A DNA stretch of 64,000 nt from Saccharomonospora sp. NB11 (GTDB lineage Bacteria > Actinomycetota > Actinomycetes > Mycobacteriales > Pseudonocardiaceae). Shown here one piece after another: positions 22,894 through 26,460 of this stretch. The stretch lies in the NCBI RefSeq assembly GCF_015910535.1, contig NZ_JACBJG010000003.1:186001-250000 (forward strand). The letters are read 5' to 3'. How positions within the stretch are numbered: position 1 is the first letter of the stretch; each line of letters starts with the position of its first letter. The notes below the pieces were generated by a model that saw only the letters and a program-made list of their open reading frames with translations, was not told the origin of the DNA and searched no databases. The position numbers and the translations under genes are program-made.

Positions 22894-23334
22894 ATGAACA
22901 GCACGGACGAGGGATTCACGGCCGAGGAACGCGCCGCGATGAAGGAGCACGCCGCGGAGCGGAAGAAGGAAGCCCGCCGCAAGTCCCGTGCGGACAAGGC
23001 GGCGGAGGCCGAGCGCGACGTGCTCGACAAGATCGCCGCGATGTCCGACGCCGACAGGGCGCTGGCGGAACGCGTCCACGCCATCGTGAAGGCCAACGCC
23101 CCGACACTCGCGCCGAAGCTCTGGTACGGGATGCCCGCCTACGCGCTCGACGGCAAGGTGGTCTGCTTCTTCCAGAACGCGGACAAGTTCAAGGCCCGCT
23201 ACGCGACGTTGGGCTTCAACGACATCGCCGCGCTCGACGCCGGCGACATGTGGCCCACCTCGTTCGCGCTCGTCCGGATGACCCCGGAGGTCGAAGAGCA
23301 CATCGCCGACCTGGTGCGCAGGGCGGTGAGCTGA
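22894..23334 (+). CDS. DUF1801 (YdhG-like) protein
   Basis: 146 residues. An unusually charged N-terminal helix (about residues 8-50, Glu/Lys/Arg/Ala) precedes a DUF1801 domain with APKLWYGMPAYALDGKVVCF and KARYATLGFNDIAALDAGDM. DUF1801 includes the frataxin-like iron chaperone fold of YdhG, but function here is not established. Start ATG 22894 follows GGGGAAGGGG. Ends 6 bp from the convergent ferredoxin-like gene. Confidence 0.85.
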   Translation: MNSTDEGFTAEERAAMKEHAAERKKEARRKSRADKAAEAERDVLDKIAAMSDADRALAERVHAIVKANAPTLAPKLWYGMPAYALDGKVVCFFQNADKFKARYATLGFNDIAALDAGDMWPTSFALVRMTPEVEEHIADLVRRAVS

Positions 23335-23340
23335 CCTCGG

Positions 23341-24255
23341 TCAGTCGGGCTCGAAGCGGACGGCCACGAGTTCGTGCTCGGGCGGCGCGGACGACCGTCC
23401 GACCCGACACGTGAGAGCCCGCTCCACGGAGGCCGGTCGGCTGCGGACGCGGACGCGGTAGGAGCCGCCCTCCGGCGCGGCGAACACCGCCTCCGTCTCG
23501 TCGCCCTCCCGGCGCGCCGAGAGCAGCGGCACGTCGTCGAGCCCTCGCAGACCAGTCCGCTCCCGCAGCAGACATTCGGCGGCCTGCACGCCGAACGCGT
23601 AGCTCGCGCGGCCTCGAAGGTGAGGCACGTCGATCTCCCCGCGTTCGTGCGTGCGGGCCAGACGCACGACGTCCTCCGGCGGGACCCTGCCGTAGTAGAG
23701 GCCGTCGGGGAGGACGAGCACGTTGGCGGCGAACCGGTCGCCCCCGATATGGGAGACCTCCCACGTCTGCGCGGCGCGTTCGTGCGCCAACGCCCGCGCC
23801 ACCGGGCGACCGCGCTCGGCGCAGCAGGGATCGTGGGCACCGTGGGTGCAGACGAGGTACAGCGGGTGCGTGACCTCCCGCAACCCGGGTGAGCGCCCCC
23901 GGGCCAGTGCCGCGAAGTCCAGGTCCAGCACCTGGTCGAGCCGGTCGAGAACCGCTTCCTCGACCCACCCGCCCCCGCGTCCCGTCCAGGCCAGCAGACA
24001 CCGGCGGCGCTCGCGACTCGCGCCACCGCGACGATGCACCCGCCGAACGAAGACGACCCGAATCCGCAGCGGCCGCGTCACCTCACGCAGCCGGGACAGC
24101 ACGCGTCGGTCGAGCCGGTTGTCGCGCAGGGCGTCCGGACCCCACGGGCCGGGTTCCTCCAACAACACCCACCTGGTCACCGTGGACGCCGTGCCGTACA
24201 GCGACTCGTGCAGCTCCTCGCTGCGGTGGCGACAGCGGAACGGCAGGTCAGGCAT
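23341..24255 (-). CDS. Sucrase/ferredoxin-like (thioredoxin-fold [2Fe-2S]) protein
   Basis: 304 residues. The central part LVCTHGAHDPCCAERGRPVA (Cys136, Cys144, Cys145), with VSHIGGDRFAANVLVLPDGL (His169) downstream, is the signature of the Suc_Fer-like family, a thioredoxin-fold ferredoxin likely to bind a [2Fe-2S] cluster. The C-terminal ~75 residues form a separate beta-rich domain. No membrane segment. Its start overlaps the stop of the JmjC gene by 8 bp, so it is the third gene of a coupled operon and may supply electrons to, or protect the iron of, that oxygenase (inference). Confidence 0.85.
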   Translation of the reverse strand: MPDLPFRCRHRSEELHESLYGTASTVTRWVLLEEPGPWGPDALRDNRLDRRVLSRLREVTRPLRIRVVFVRRVHRRGGASRERRRCLLAWTGRGGGWVEEAVLDRLDQVLDLDFAALARGRSPGLREVTHPLYLVCTHGAHDPCCAERGRPVARALAHERAAQTWEVSHIGGDRFAANVLVLPDGLYYGRVPPEDVVRLARTHERGEIDVPHLRGRASYAFGVQAAECLLRERTGLRGLDDVPLLSARREGDETEAVFAAPEGGSYRVRVRSRPASVERALTCRVGRSSAPPEHELVAVRFEPD

Positions 24256-25396
24256 CCACGACCTCGAGCAGGCCCTCCCGCACGAGACGTCGCACGAGGA
24301 CCAGTCGACTGTCCCGGTCGAGCAGGTCGGCCAGGTCCCGGACCGTGAAGGTGTCCCGCGCGACGATCTCCCGGATCACCGGTTCGAGCCGATCGGGCAC
24401 CCTCAACTCCCGGTCGCCGAGAAGCAGGCGCAACACGTCCTCGCCGGGACGCAACTCGCAGACCGCCCCGGGACGACGCCGAAGGCGGTCGTCGTCGCCC
24501 AACGCGGACACGCGGAGCCGATCGGACAGTCCTCCACGCAACACCGACGGCCGGGTGGTGAGGAAGTGCTCGACCCGCCGTTCGACGGCCTCCACCGGAT
24601 CGGCACCCATGAGCTGGGCACCGACCTGCTTGAGGTGGCGTCCGAGTTCGTCGGCCACGGAGTCCCGCTGCCGGTGGTGCCCCACGGGAAGCGACGCGTT
24701 CCACGCCGGGTCGTCGAGAACCCGCGTCACCGTGGCCTCGATCAGGTCCCGCCACCGCGTCGGGTGGATGCCGACCGTGAGGTGGCCCGAGACGACGTGC
24801 TGTGCCCGGGCCGCGTGGCGCGTGCCCGTGGGCAGGTAGAGCGCCATGCCGGGGCGCAGCTCGATCTCGTCGGCCTCCCGGTCCGAAGAGCGCCACACCT
24901 GCCACGACTTGACCCCGAACGCCTGCAACACGAAGACGTCGTGGGCGTCGCCGTGCGGTCGAAGCCCCTGCGCGCCGGGCGGCGTGATGTAGGCGTTCAC
25001 CTGGCAGGGGTGCCCGAGCGCGAGTTCCAACTCCCGACAGAAGTCGACCAGCGGTGGCCAGTACCGGTGCAGCGCCTGCAACACCACCGTCGCGCCGTCC
25101 TCGACCGCGGCCAGCACCCGAGCCGGATCGGCGACCCCGGTCACCGACACACCGCCGATGCGGGTGGTCCGCGTGTACTCCGACGACGGCAGCGTCCGAC
25201 CGTCGCGCACGAGACGGAAGGCCGGGGTGCGCAGCGCGTGCTGGGTGAGCAGCGCGTCCACGTCGTCGAGACTCAGCAGGTCCTCGAACCCGTCGGTCGG
25301 CCCGTGCACGAGCGACCGTCGACCCCAGACCTCGTCGGCGAACCGCTCGACGTCACCGACGCACCGTTCGAGGGCGTCCGCCACGGCCGACCTCAC
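24248..25396 (-). CDS. JmjC/cupin-domain Fe(II)-dependent oxygenase (YcfD/ROX-like)
   Basis: 382 residues. The JmjC cupin core (about 75-215) carries the iron-binding triad: His148 and Asp150 in LRPHGDAHDVFVLQAFG and His194 in LYLPTGTRHAARA. Sequence context resembles the bacterial ribosomal oxygenase YcfD (HxD...H plus a following dimer/winged-helix region; here LRVPDRLEPVIREIVARDTF and beyond). Members hydroxylate protein side chains using 2-oxoglutarate and oxygen. The ATG at 25396 overlaps the end of an Asp-rich peptide gene (ATGA), which makes that peptide a candidate substrate (inference). Confidence 0.88.
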   Translation of the reverse strand: MRSAVADALERCVGDVERFADEVWGRRSLVHGPTDGFEDLLSLDDVDALLTQHALRTPAFRLVRDGRTLPSSEYTRTTRIGGVSVTGVADPARVLAAVEDGATVVLQALHRYWPPLVDFCRELELALGHPCQVNAYITPPGAQGLRPHGDAHDVFVLQAFGVKSWQVWRSSDREADEIELRPGMALYLPTGTRHAARAQHVVSGHLTVGIHPTRWRDLIEATVTRVLDDPAWNASLPVGHHRQRDSVADELGRHLKQVGAQLMGADPVEAVERRVEHFLTTRPSVLRGGLSDRLRVSALGDDDRLRRRPGAVCELRPGEDVLRLLLGDRELRVPDRLEPVIREIVARDTFTVRDLADLLDRDSRLVLVRRLVREGLLEVVDA

Positions 25397-25641
25397 GAGT
25401 CCCGTGAGTCCGTGCTGTCCGCGTCGGTCTCGTCGGCGTCGGCGTCCGTGGCATCGGCGTCGGCATCGGTCGCGTCCGAGTCGGCGTCCGTGGCGTCCGC
25501 GTCGGCGTCCTTCGCGTCGCTGTCGGTGTCGCGCGCGTCGGTGTCGTCGCCGCGGTCGGTGCTGTCGGAGTCCCGGGCTTGCGGCCCGGTGCCACCGACG
25601 GTCTGCATCTCGTCGTCCCGCAACGGACGGTCCGATCCCAT
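25393..25641 (-). CDS. Asp-rich heptad-repeat peptide (candidate modified precursor)
   Basis: 82 residues, 28 of them Asp, with only two Glu and no Cys. A short N-terminal segment (GSDRPLRDDEMQTVGGTG) resembles a leader; the rest is acidic. Residues 40-74 are five heptads of the form D-[AS]-D-[AE]-[TK]-D-A. The start ATG at 25641 has a good GGAGG upstream, and the stop overlaps the JmjC oxygenase start by 4 bp, which supports real translation despite the low complexity. Possible roles are a substrate for Asp hydroxylation, a metal-binding peptide, or a RiPP precursor. No signal peptide or transporter gene is present. Confidence 0.72.
   Translation of the reverse strand: MGSDRPLRDDEMQTVGGTGPQARDSDSTDRGDDTDARDTDSDAKDADADATDADSDATDADADATDADADETDADSTDSRDS
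25420..25524 (-). repeat. 21-bp tandem repeat encoding Asp heptads
   Basis: Five consecutive 21-bp units encode DSDAKDA, DADATDA, DSDATDA, DADATDA and DADETDA. The frame is preserved in all units. Confidence 0.85.
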
Positions 25642-25756
25642 GACGCCTCCAGGCTCCTCGCAGGCGGAGTGCTGACGACTCCTCGATACCCCGGAGGGGA
25701 GGGCTGAAACGACGACTCAGATGCCGTGGGCGGTACTCGGAGAGCCGTCCAACGAA

Positions 25757-25792: not shown

Positions 25793-25801
25793 CGATCCTT
25801 G

Positions 25802-25874
25802 TGGAGCTGAGGGGAATCGAACCCCTGACCTCCGCCTTGCAAAAGCGGCGCTCTACCAATTGAGCTACAGCCCC
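25802..25874 (-). tRNA. tRNA-Ala(TGC)
   Basis: 73 nt on the minus strand. Acceptor 5' GGGGCTG pairs with 3' CAGCTCC with one G-T pair; D-arm GCTC...GAGC; anticodon loop TTTTGCAAA with anticodon TGC; T-arm loop GGTTCGATTCC; discriminator A. CCA is not encoded, so it needs the CCA-adding enzyme encoded at 61638. Confidence 0.97.
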
Positions 25875-26097: not shown

Positions 26098-26226
26098 GGT
26101 GAAGCCCTCCTCGACAACCTGCTGACCGTGCACTCGTGATGTTACTCCACGGCACCGTCGCGCCGTTTACGCGGTCCTCCTGTCGGGTAGTTGATCGCCA
26201 GGATCGGACGAATGGAAGGAATTGTG

Positions 26227-26460
26227 ATGGCGGGTGTCGACAAGAACCAGGAAGGCATCAAGGGCGCGGTCGAGGATCTGAAGGGGCGGGCGAAGGAGGC
26301 CGCCGGGACGGTGCTCGGCAACGACGACATGCAGCGCGAAGGTGGCGCGCAGCAGGAGAAGGGCAACGCCCAGAAGGACGCCGCCGAGAAGCAGAGCCAG
26401 GCCGAACAGGCGCAGCGCGAGGCCCGCGAGGCCGAGGAACGCGAACGTCGCCGGCAGTAG
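26227..26460 (+). CDS. CsbD-like stress protein
   Basis: 77 residues, very hydrophilic and helical. The start MAGVDKNQEGIKGAVEDLKG and GRAKEAAGTVLGNDDMQREG match CsbD/YjbJ proteins, which are induced by general stress in other bacteria. The ATG at 26227 has GGAAGGA upstream. It is the only rightward gene between the two tRNAs. Confidence 0.9.
   Translation: MAGVDKNQEGIKGAVEDLKGRAKEAAGTVLGNDDMQREGGAQQEKGNAQKDAAEKQSQAEQAQREAREAEERERRRQ

Follow-up and report, generated by a model that had tools for sequence, protein, structure and literature searches.

Hydroxylation of Asp and Asn side chains by eukaryotic 2-oxoglutarate (2OG)-dependent enzymes is known for FIH and is described for AspH; the chemistry is like that considered here, but the targets are protein domains and there is no dedicated precursor. 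The ribosomal oxygenases (ROX) NO66/RIOX1, MINA53/RIOX2 and YcfD share a JmjC barrel, a helical region, a C-terminal winged helix and an HxD...H iron site. That a JmjC 2OG hydroxylase can take a ribosomal precursor peptide as its substrate has been measured for BipG/BpmG of the biphenomycin pathway, described in PMC12707348 and PMC12257519 as targeting ornithine within a many-enzyme antibiotic cluster that includes a multinuclear non-haem iron oxidative enzyme (MNIO), a radical S-adenosylmethionine (SAM) enzyme, a protease and an exporter. The bufferins, according to PMC12452194, form large families of ribosomal peptides that are modified by an iron oxygenase, an MNIO, and chelate copper. Bregman et al. 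2025 (PMC12710340) placed bacterial homologues of fusions between JmjC and a recognition element (RRE) of ribosomally synthesised and post-translationally modified peptides (RiPPs) in 'RiPP-like genomic contexts'; the remark is short, concerns fish and algal proteins along with bacterial homologues, and names no Asp-repeat peptide or Suc_Fer protein, and the words 'ferredoxin' and 'cupin' do not occur in the main text of that paper. Here we describe a three-gene operon in a 64,000-nucleotide stretch of Saccharomonospora sp. NB11 (contig NZ_JACBJG010000003.1; the whole stretch is called the window), which encodes an Asp-repeat peptide, a JmjC oxygenase and a Suc_Fer-like protein, and which is probably, judging from its sequence, a leader–core peptide with its own modifying oxygenase and an accessory ferredoxin.

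It is likely that the JmjC enzyme modifies the Asp-repeat peptide; the chances that the modification is hydroxylation on Asp appear evenly balanced, and a product serving as a metal ligand is a tentative suggestion. Bufferins contain Cys; the window core does not, and the enzyme beside it belongs to another family. The window enzyme shares the architecture of NO66, MINA53 and YcfD, but is only ~18–25% identical to them in structural alignments, lies in a peptide operon and has the Asp-repeat peptide, not a ribosomal protein, as its presumed substrate. All three genes lie on the minus strand in the order Asp-rich peptide, JmjC, Suc_Fer, and their coordinates bear out the gene overlaps of 4 bp and 8 bp claimed in a first-pass annotation of this DNA. 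A residue count agreed with its description of the first gene product, including five D-x-D-x-x-D-A heptads, which begin at residues 40, 47, 54, 61 and 68 with a period of seven; five heptads were reached by 6 of 10,000 shuffles of the window core.

The same annotation had proposed a search for the gene order in other genomes, and the order was found widely in Actinomycetota. This spread, the RRE-like domain, the leader-like N-terminus and the DGGA form of the peptide, all described below, go beyond what that annotation noticed. JmjC homologues were present in 87 of 390 family genomes and 124 of 394 class-drawn genomes (E <= 1e-30), and in 57 of 396 phylum-drawn genomes (E <= 1e-40). Flanks were fetched mainly for the better-scoring homologues, together with 20 lower-scoring class matches; 57 of the 87 family, 34 of the 124 class and 23 of the 39 other-class genomes with matches lie outside the fetched sample, and, since mostly better-scoring loci were fetched, the proportions below may flatter. 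A 22-member profile divided the fetched loci by score into an upper set (at least 346 bits) and a lower set (at most 264 bits), the border being not clean because matches of other classes outside the fetched set score 273 to 333 bits. The upper set of 114 loci, the window included, comprises 98 drawn from one named record and from searches at genus, family and class level, and 16 from other classes. Copies (L001, L040, L059) and repeat fetches of counted genomes (L139–L142, L145, L148, L153, L159) were removed before counting, as was L036, which scores 388 bits and stands within the profile itself, is without Suc_Fer and groups in the tree with a lower-scoring row.

In 109 of the 114 upper-set loci, an Asp-repeat peptide directly upstream of JmjC was called by a script that accepted at least two DG[GSTA]A units, or 20% Asp, or a rule fitted to L147 (ADGTDQG repeats) after that locus had been read; L081 and L095, seen by reading, bring the count to 111 of 114. 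At L022 the contig end cuts the locus, and only out-of-frame repeat DNA is visible. Suc_Fer lies on the same strand within the fetched flank in 101 of 114 loci (86 of 98, and 15 of the 16 from other classes, one of these weak), overlapping the neighbouring gene by 4 to 11 bp in most. A RiPP-type precursor is a small gene beside an enzyme, with a conserved leader and a variable core; such a small gene is seen at 111 of 114 loci, with repeats that vary in type and number and, in 97 of the 109 script-called peptides, an acidic leader motif. Peptide-bearing rows of the tree place the gene set in 29 family-level groups of the phylum. Of 98 upper-set JmjC genes, 90 follow a small open reading frame (ORF) that is at least 12% Asp; of 121 other genes at these loci, 9 do so. 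This loose criterion also admits 15 of 25 lower-set JmjC genes. Among those 25 loci, no Suc_Fer and no DGGA-type peptide was found, and one was scored Asp-rich. The pairing of peptide and oxygenase foreseen in the annotation thus stands for the upper-set relatives, which do not usually lack the peptide. Of 41 neighbourhoods (the window and 40 loci, with 4 kb to either side), all 41 contain the JmjC cluster and 38 the Suc_Fer cluster; any further cluster present in at least 10 of them was an antisense reading over operon genes. No third gene (protease, exporter or regulator) was common to most of these neighbourhoods, smaller clusters (at most 9 loci) being left unannotated, and we infer that nothing speaks against an intracellular role of the peptide.

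The window peptide contains no Cys, aromatic residue or His, and matches no Pfam family. An acidic leader-like motif lies within the first 24 residues of 97 of the 109 script-called peptides, for example MSLEDDDIRSG, MALDDDDMTTSG, RPLRDDDMQTVGG or LSDEDIETV. The cores fall into two main types. The first, DGGADGGADGSA, described as DGGADGGA repeats, occurs in most Actinomycetes examined and has the His-containing variants HDGGADG and EGPADGGSNPEGHDGGADGTA; the second, DxDxxDA-like, occurs in the window genus, in some other Actinomycetes and in most of the 16 loci from other classes. Asp occupies every fourth residue in DGGA cores, and the residue that follows Asp is mostly Gly, Ala, Ser or Thr; the core of locus L079 is almost wholly Asp, Gly and Ala. 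Within single genes, 2935 of 3324 pairs of DGGA units encode the same four residues with different DNA, and the ratio of non-synonymous to synonymous substitution (dN/dS) between the window peptide and those of three genus relatives is 0.22 to 0.45 (six pairs), that of JmjC being ~0.2. Because of this synonymous codon diversity and a dN/dS below 1, the Asp-rich ORF is taken as a real protein; its repeats are maintained at the protein level.

The JmjC protein matches PF08007 (JmjC_2) above the Pfam cut-off (E 6.5e-18), as do 22 of 22 members, and the HxD...H iron site that the first-pass annotation had recognised is unchanged across all 22 proteins of the alignment, which includes the window's own. 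Its AlphaFold model (mean predicted local distance difference test, pLDDT, 89.9) matches NO66, MINA53 and YcfD over nearly the full length, with the JmjC, dimerisation and winged-helix parts of the ROX architecture all present; the first 50 matches listed for the full-length model are JmjC and related oxygenases only, a list that speaks neither for nor against RREs. In the modelled C-terminal domain, strands at 304–307, 314–317, 321–325 and 330–334 are followed by helices at 335–346, 352–355 and 361–373. This order, strands and then three helices, is that predicted for an RRE, with additional short strands. Against a PqqD-type profile the domain gave P 2.2e-4 over 74 columns (HH-suite probability 45%; controls 0.055 or worse); 2 of 25 PqqD-type hits (L180, L184) were set aside. 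The modelled domain resembles RREs.

Enzyme and repeat type also go together in a tree of 138 JmjC proteins, built by a quick method with a midpoint root, long branches and labels set by hand for the 16 other-class rows. The DGGA label changes 3 times, compared with 45 for shuffled labels, and the DxD label 6 times, compared with 29; lower-scoring rows are scattered. The window enzyme clusters with DxD-type enzymes, other classes included, and the other fetched genera of its family are mostly DGGA, so that the type of peptide goes with the enzyme rather than with the species. The tree shows co-inheritance of enzyme and repeat type.

The Suc_Fer-like protein matches PF06999 with 78.2 bits (cut-off 34.9; E 1.1e-21), and the cysteine pattern reported earlier for it holds: all 16 aligned proteins keep C8, C136, C144, C145 and C283, along with H169. 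In its model (mean pLDDT 89.0), ~100 of 304 residues match the Aquifex [2Fe-2S] ferredoxin (Foldseek probability 1.00, E 4.2e-4), and the Azotobacter thioredoxin-like [2Fe-2S] ferredoxin also matches about a third. Residues C136, C144, C145 and H169 make a bound [2Fe-2S] cluster plausible. Three solo Suc_Fer proteins from the phylum have the same conserved Cys and His residues, save H141, which is found in 16 of 16 operon proteins and is replaced by Lys in 3 of 3 solo ones. Position 173 (D or C) was dropped as an operon-specific residue, because the three solo proteins also have D there.

Some more distant JmjC homologues have small neighbours of their own. Of the 25 lower-set loci, 11 have an ORF of 28–200 residues with D-x-D-x-x-D upstream of JmjC; for control genes the figure is 3 of 121. 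Since eight of these eleven loci are closely related, they represent ~4 lineages. Action on small Asp-rich peptides may, as these neighbourhoods suggest, be general in this JmjC branch. In one actinomycete family (L119–L126), a conserved ORF of ~35–38 residues, ...EVEDLAEVTSRDITAGGDSDGTDSSSDFI, precedes a distant JmjC gene without Suc_Fer, and looks like a second precursor family. On the Streptomyces clavuligerus plasmid NZ_CP065235.1 (L188:3772-7119), a 48-residue hypothetical protein with DNDPSDP and DPDPFDP lies near a JmjC 'cupin' gene; an S9 peptidase is encoded on the opposite strand and an ATP-binding cassette (ABC) transporter further along, and the locus looks like a RiPP-like cluster.

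Table 1. Features of the operon and its upstream region, in window coordinates.
Feature	Position	Strand	Remarks
Asp-repeat peptide gene	25393..25641	minus	82 aa, 28 Asp; presumed precursor/substrate
Leader-like N-terminus of peptide, residues 1-23, ...DRPLRDDEMQTVGG...	25573..25641	minus	Acidic motif common among relatives
Repeat core of peptide, residues 24-82, D-x-D-x-x-D(-A) heptads	25396..25572	minus	Other classes of Actinomycetota have comparable cores
JmjC (PF08007) 2OG/Fe(II) oxygenase, ribosomal-oxygenase fold, GTG start	24248..25396	minus	382 aa, H148/D150/H194
RRE-like winged-helix domain, JmjC C-terminus (~residues 303-382)	24251..24490	minus	AlphaFold model and PqqD-type profile match
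Suc_Fer-like protein (PF06999), thioredoxin-like [2Fe-2S] ferredoxin part	23341..24255	minus	304 aa
Promoter-like GTTT-N15-GGGTAT	25686..25710	minus	Resembles stress-sigma sites

A tRNA-Ala gene lies just upstream of the operon (25801-25874). The operon (Table 1) is flanked by a DUF1801-like gene (22894-23334, plus strand) and a CsbD-like gene (26191-26460, plus strand), both below the Pfam cut-off.

These observations can be joined into a mechanism. The RRE-like C-terminal domain would grip the peptide leader while the catalytic barrel moves along the repeats and hydroxylates many residues. The likeliest site would be the C-beta of Asp, yielding 3-hydroxyaspartate and +16 Da each time, which is favoured because no functional side chain other than that of Asp is shared by the core types. 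Suc_Fer might keep the iron ferrous, or supply iron or electrons, and the poly-(hydroxy)Asp product would remain intracellular, possibly as an iron or calcium buffer.

Several points weigh against such a precursor and its oxygenase. L094 and L098, from one genus, retain the enzyme without a repeat peptide or an adjacent Suc_Fer, and 13 of 114 loci have no Suc_Fer within the fetched flanks, for which reason this protein is read as accessory. The literal D-x-D-x-x-D string is found in only 19 of 98 upper-set loci, since Asp residues in the DGGA form are four positions apart. The HH-suite probability of the RRE match is only 45%, and the Pfam PqqD family (PF05402) matches 0 of 22 members. Leader removal by a protease, or export, is common in RiPP pathways but not universal; no protease was recognised in the neighbourhoods, where neighbours were not annotated singly, and leader removal is thus putative, though a protease encoded far away could act. 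Adjacent genes travel together anyway and near-copies cluster labels, and the tree therefore does not prove an enzyme–substrate pairing; the peptide could instead be a regulator or partner. Lastly, known ROX enzymes hydroxylate His or Arg, not Asp (PMC6006756), and DGGA cores contain His (3.4% of residues), which the window peptide lacks.

Two of the subjects just named have further observations attached to them. Upstream of JmjC in L094 and L098 lies a different acidic ORF, ending ...DDPELxGADLxEDQ..GPTxEPGA. In 9 of 12 JmjC genomes without an adjacent Suc_Fer, a homologue is located elsewhere, with no Asp-repeat ORF seen within ~1.5 kb of it; the protein looks accessory or replaceable.

Among the alternatives, a different chemistry on the same peptide (hydroxylation of His or of Ser, Thr or Ala, desaturation, cross-linking or oxidative backbone cleavage) is the most serious, and is possible though less favoured. 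Iron oxygenases described in RiPP pathways perform several reactions, and the DGGA cores offer repeated Gly and Ala besides His; the window core, however, has neither His, Cys nor aromatics, and in the cores seen, down to that of L079, Asp is the sole functional side chain in common.

It is unlikely that the JmjC protein is instead a genuine ribosomal oxygenase whose substrate is a ribosomal protein, with the peptide as an unmodified inhibitor, chaperone or acidic ribosome-directed partner. Its fold relatives, which match nearly the whole model, act on ribosomal substrates (PMC6006756), and basic ribosomal proteins are conceivable binding partners for a disordered acidic peptide. However, a precursor and its enzyme are suggested by the leader-like motif with its repeat core, by the RRE-like domain and by the close pairing, and the D-x-D-x-x-D ORFs beside distant homologues point the same way.

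Less probable still is an unmodified intracellular buffer of Ca2+ or other metal, in which oxygenase and ferredoxin are merely stress-coupled operon genes. The spacing of Asp is regular, with Asp–Asp neighbours at 0.04–0.06 of expectation, and the GTTT-N15-GGGTAT sequence, which we take to resemble SigF/SigB-type stress-sigma promoters of actinobacteria, is present in 4 of 4 window-genus members having the operon. Such a buffer would nevertheless leave the leader-like N-terminus and the association of oxygenase and peptide unexplained. As a general operon feature, the stress-sigma promoter was dropped: over 92 upstream regions, GTTT-N14..17-GGG[TC]A gave 14 forward and 10 reverse matches (12 and 3 for N15 only). 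The reverse strand of these regions held 9 GTTT-N14..17-GGGTA matches compared with a shuffle mean of 0.1, perhaps reflecting divergent promoters. An IdeR iron-regulator box was also rejected, its best match having 6 mismatches of 19 in 93 regions, no better than in shuffles, a fivefold larger set of which reached 5; a scan for sigma-70 promoters and terminators found none.

A translation artefact of high-GC repeat DNA, or a regulatory upstream ORF, as a short gene overlapping the next might suggest, is hardly credible: the artefact is strongly disfavoured by synonymous diversity, dN/dS below 1 and the control-gene comparison, and the N-terminus is conserved, with similar patterns in distant families.

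The Asp-repeat peptide and its pairing with the oxygenase appear to be new to the sources searched. NCBIfam has no model for the window's three proteins, nor for four related peptides, one related JmjC and one related Suc_Fer (one irrelevant weak match, E 0.018); neither Pfam nor NCBIfam has a family that covers the tested peptides (the related ones in NCBIfam only) or that names the enzyme beyond PF08007. No description of the peptide or the triplet was found in the open-access literature searched, and the repeat strings were absent from it; most subscription journals were beyond reach, and prior work is possible there. The main text of the decRiPPter paper (PMC7794033) has no occurrence of cupin, JmjC or sucrase.

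At its widest, and speculatively, the operon may represent a phylum-wide class of repeat proteins in which an RRE-bearing ROX homologue, supported by a ferredoxin, hydroxylates dozens of Asp residues to make an intracellular metal polymer of poly-beta-hydroxyaspartate that stores or buffers iron or calcium. If this is true, the winged-helix domain of eukaryotic ROX enzymes would share ancestry with RiPP leader-binding domains, a possible origin for that of NO66 and MINA53. If the product binds metal, it would constitute a new intracellular metal-handling system. The operon links two seldom-joined fields, ribosomal-oxygenase-family hydroxylases and ribosomal peptide modification, and gives bacterial JmjC proteins a definite candidate substrate, with which the question of their target becomes testable.

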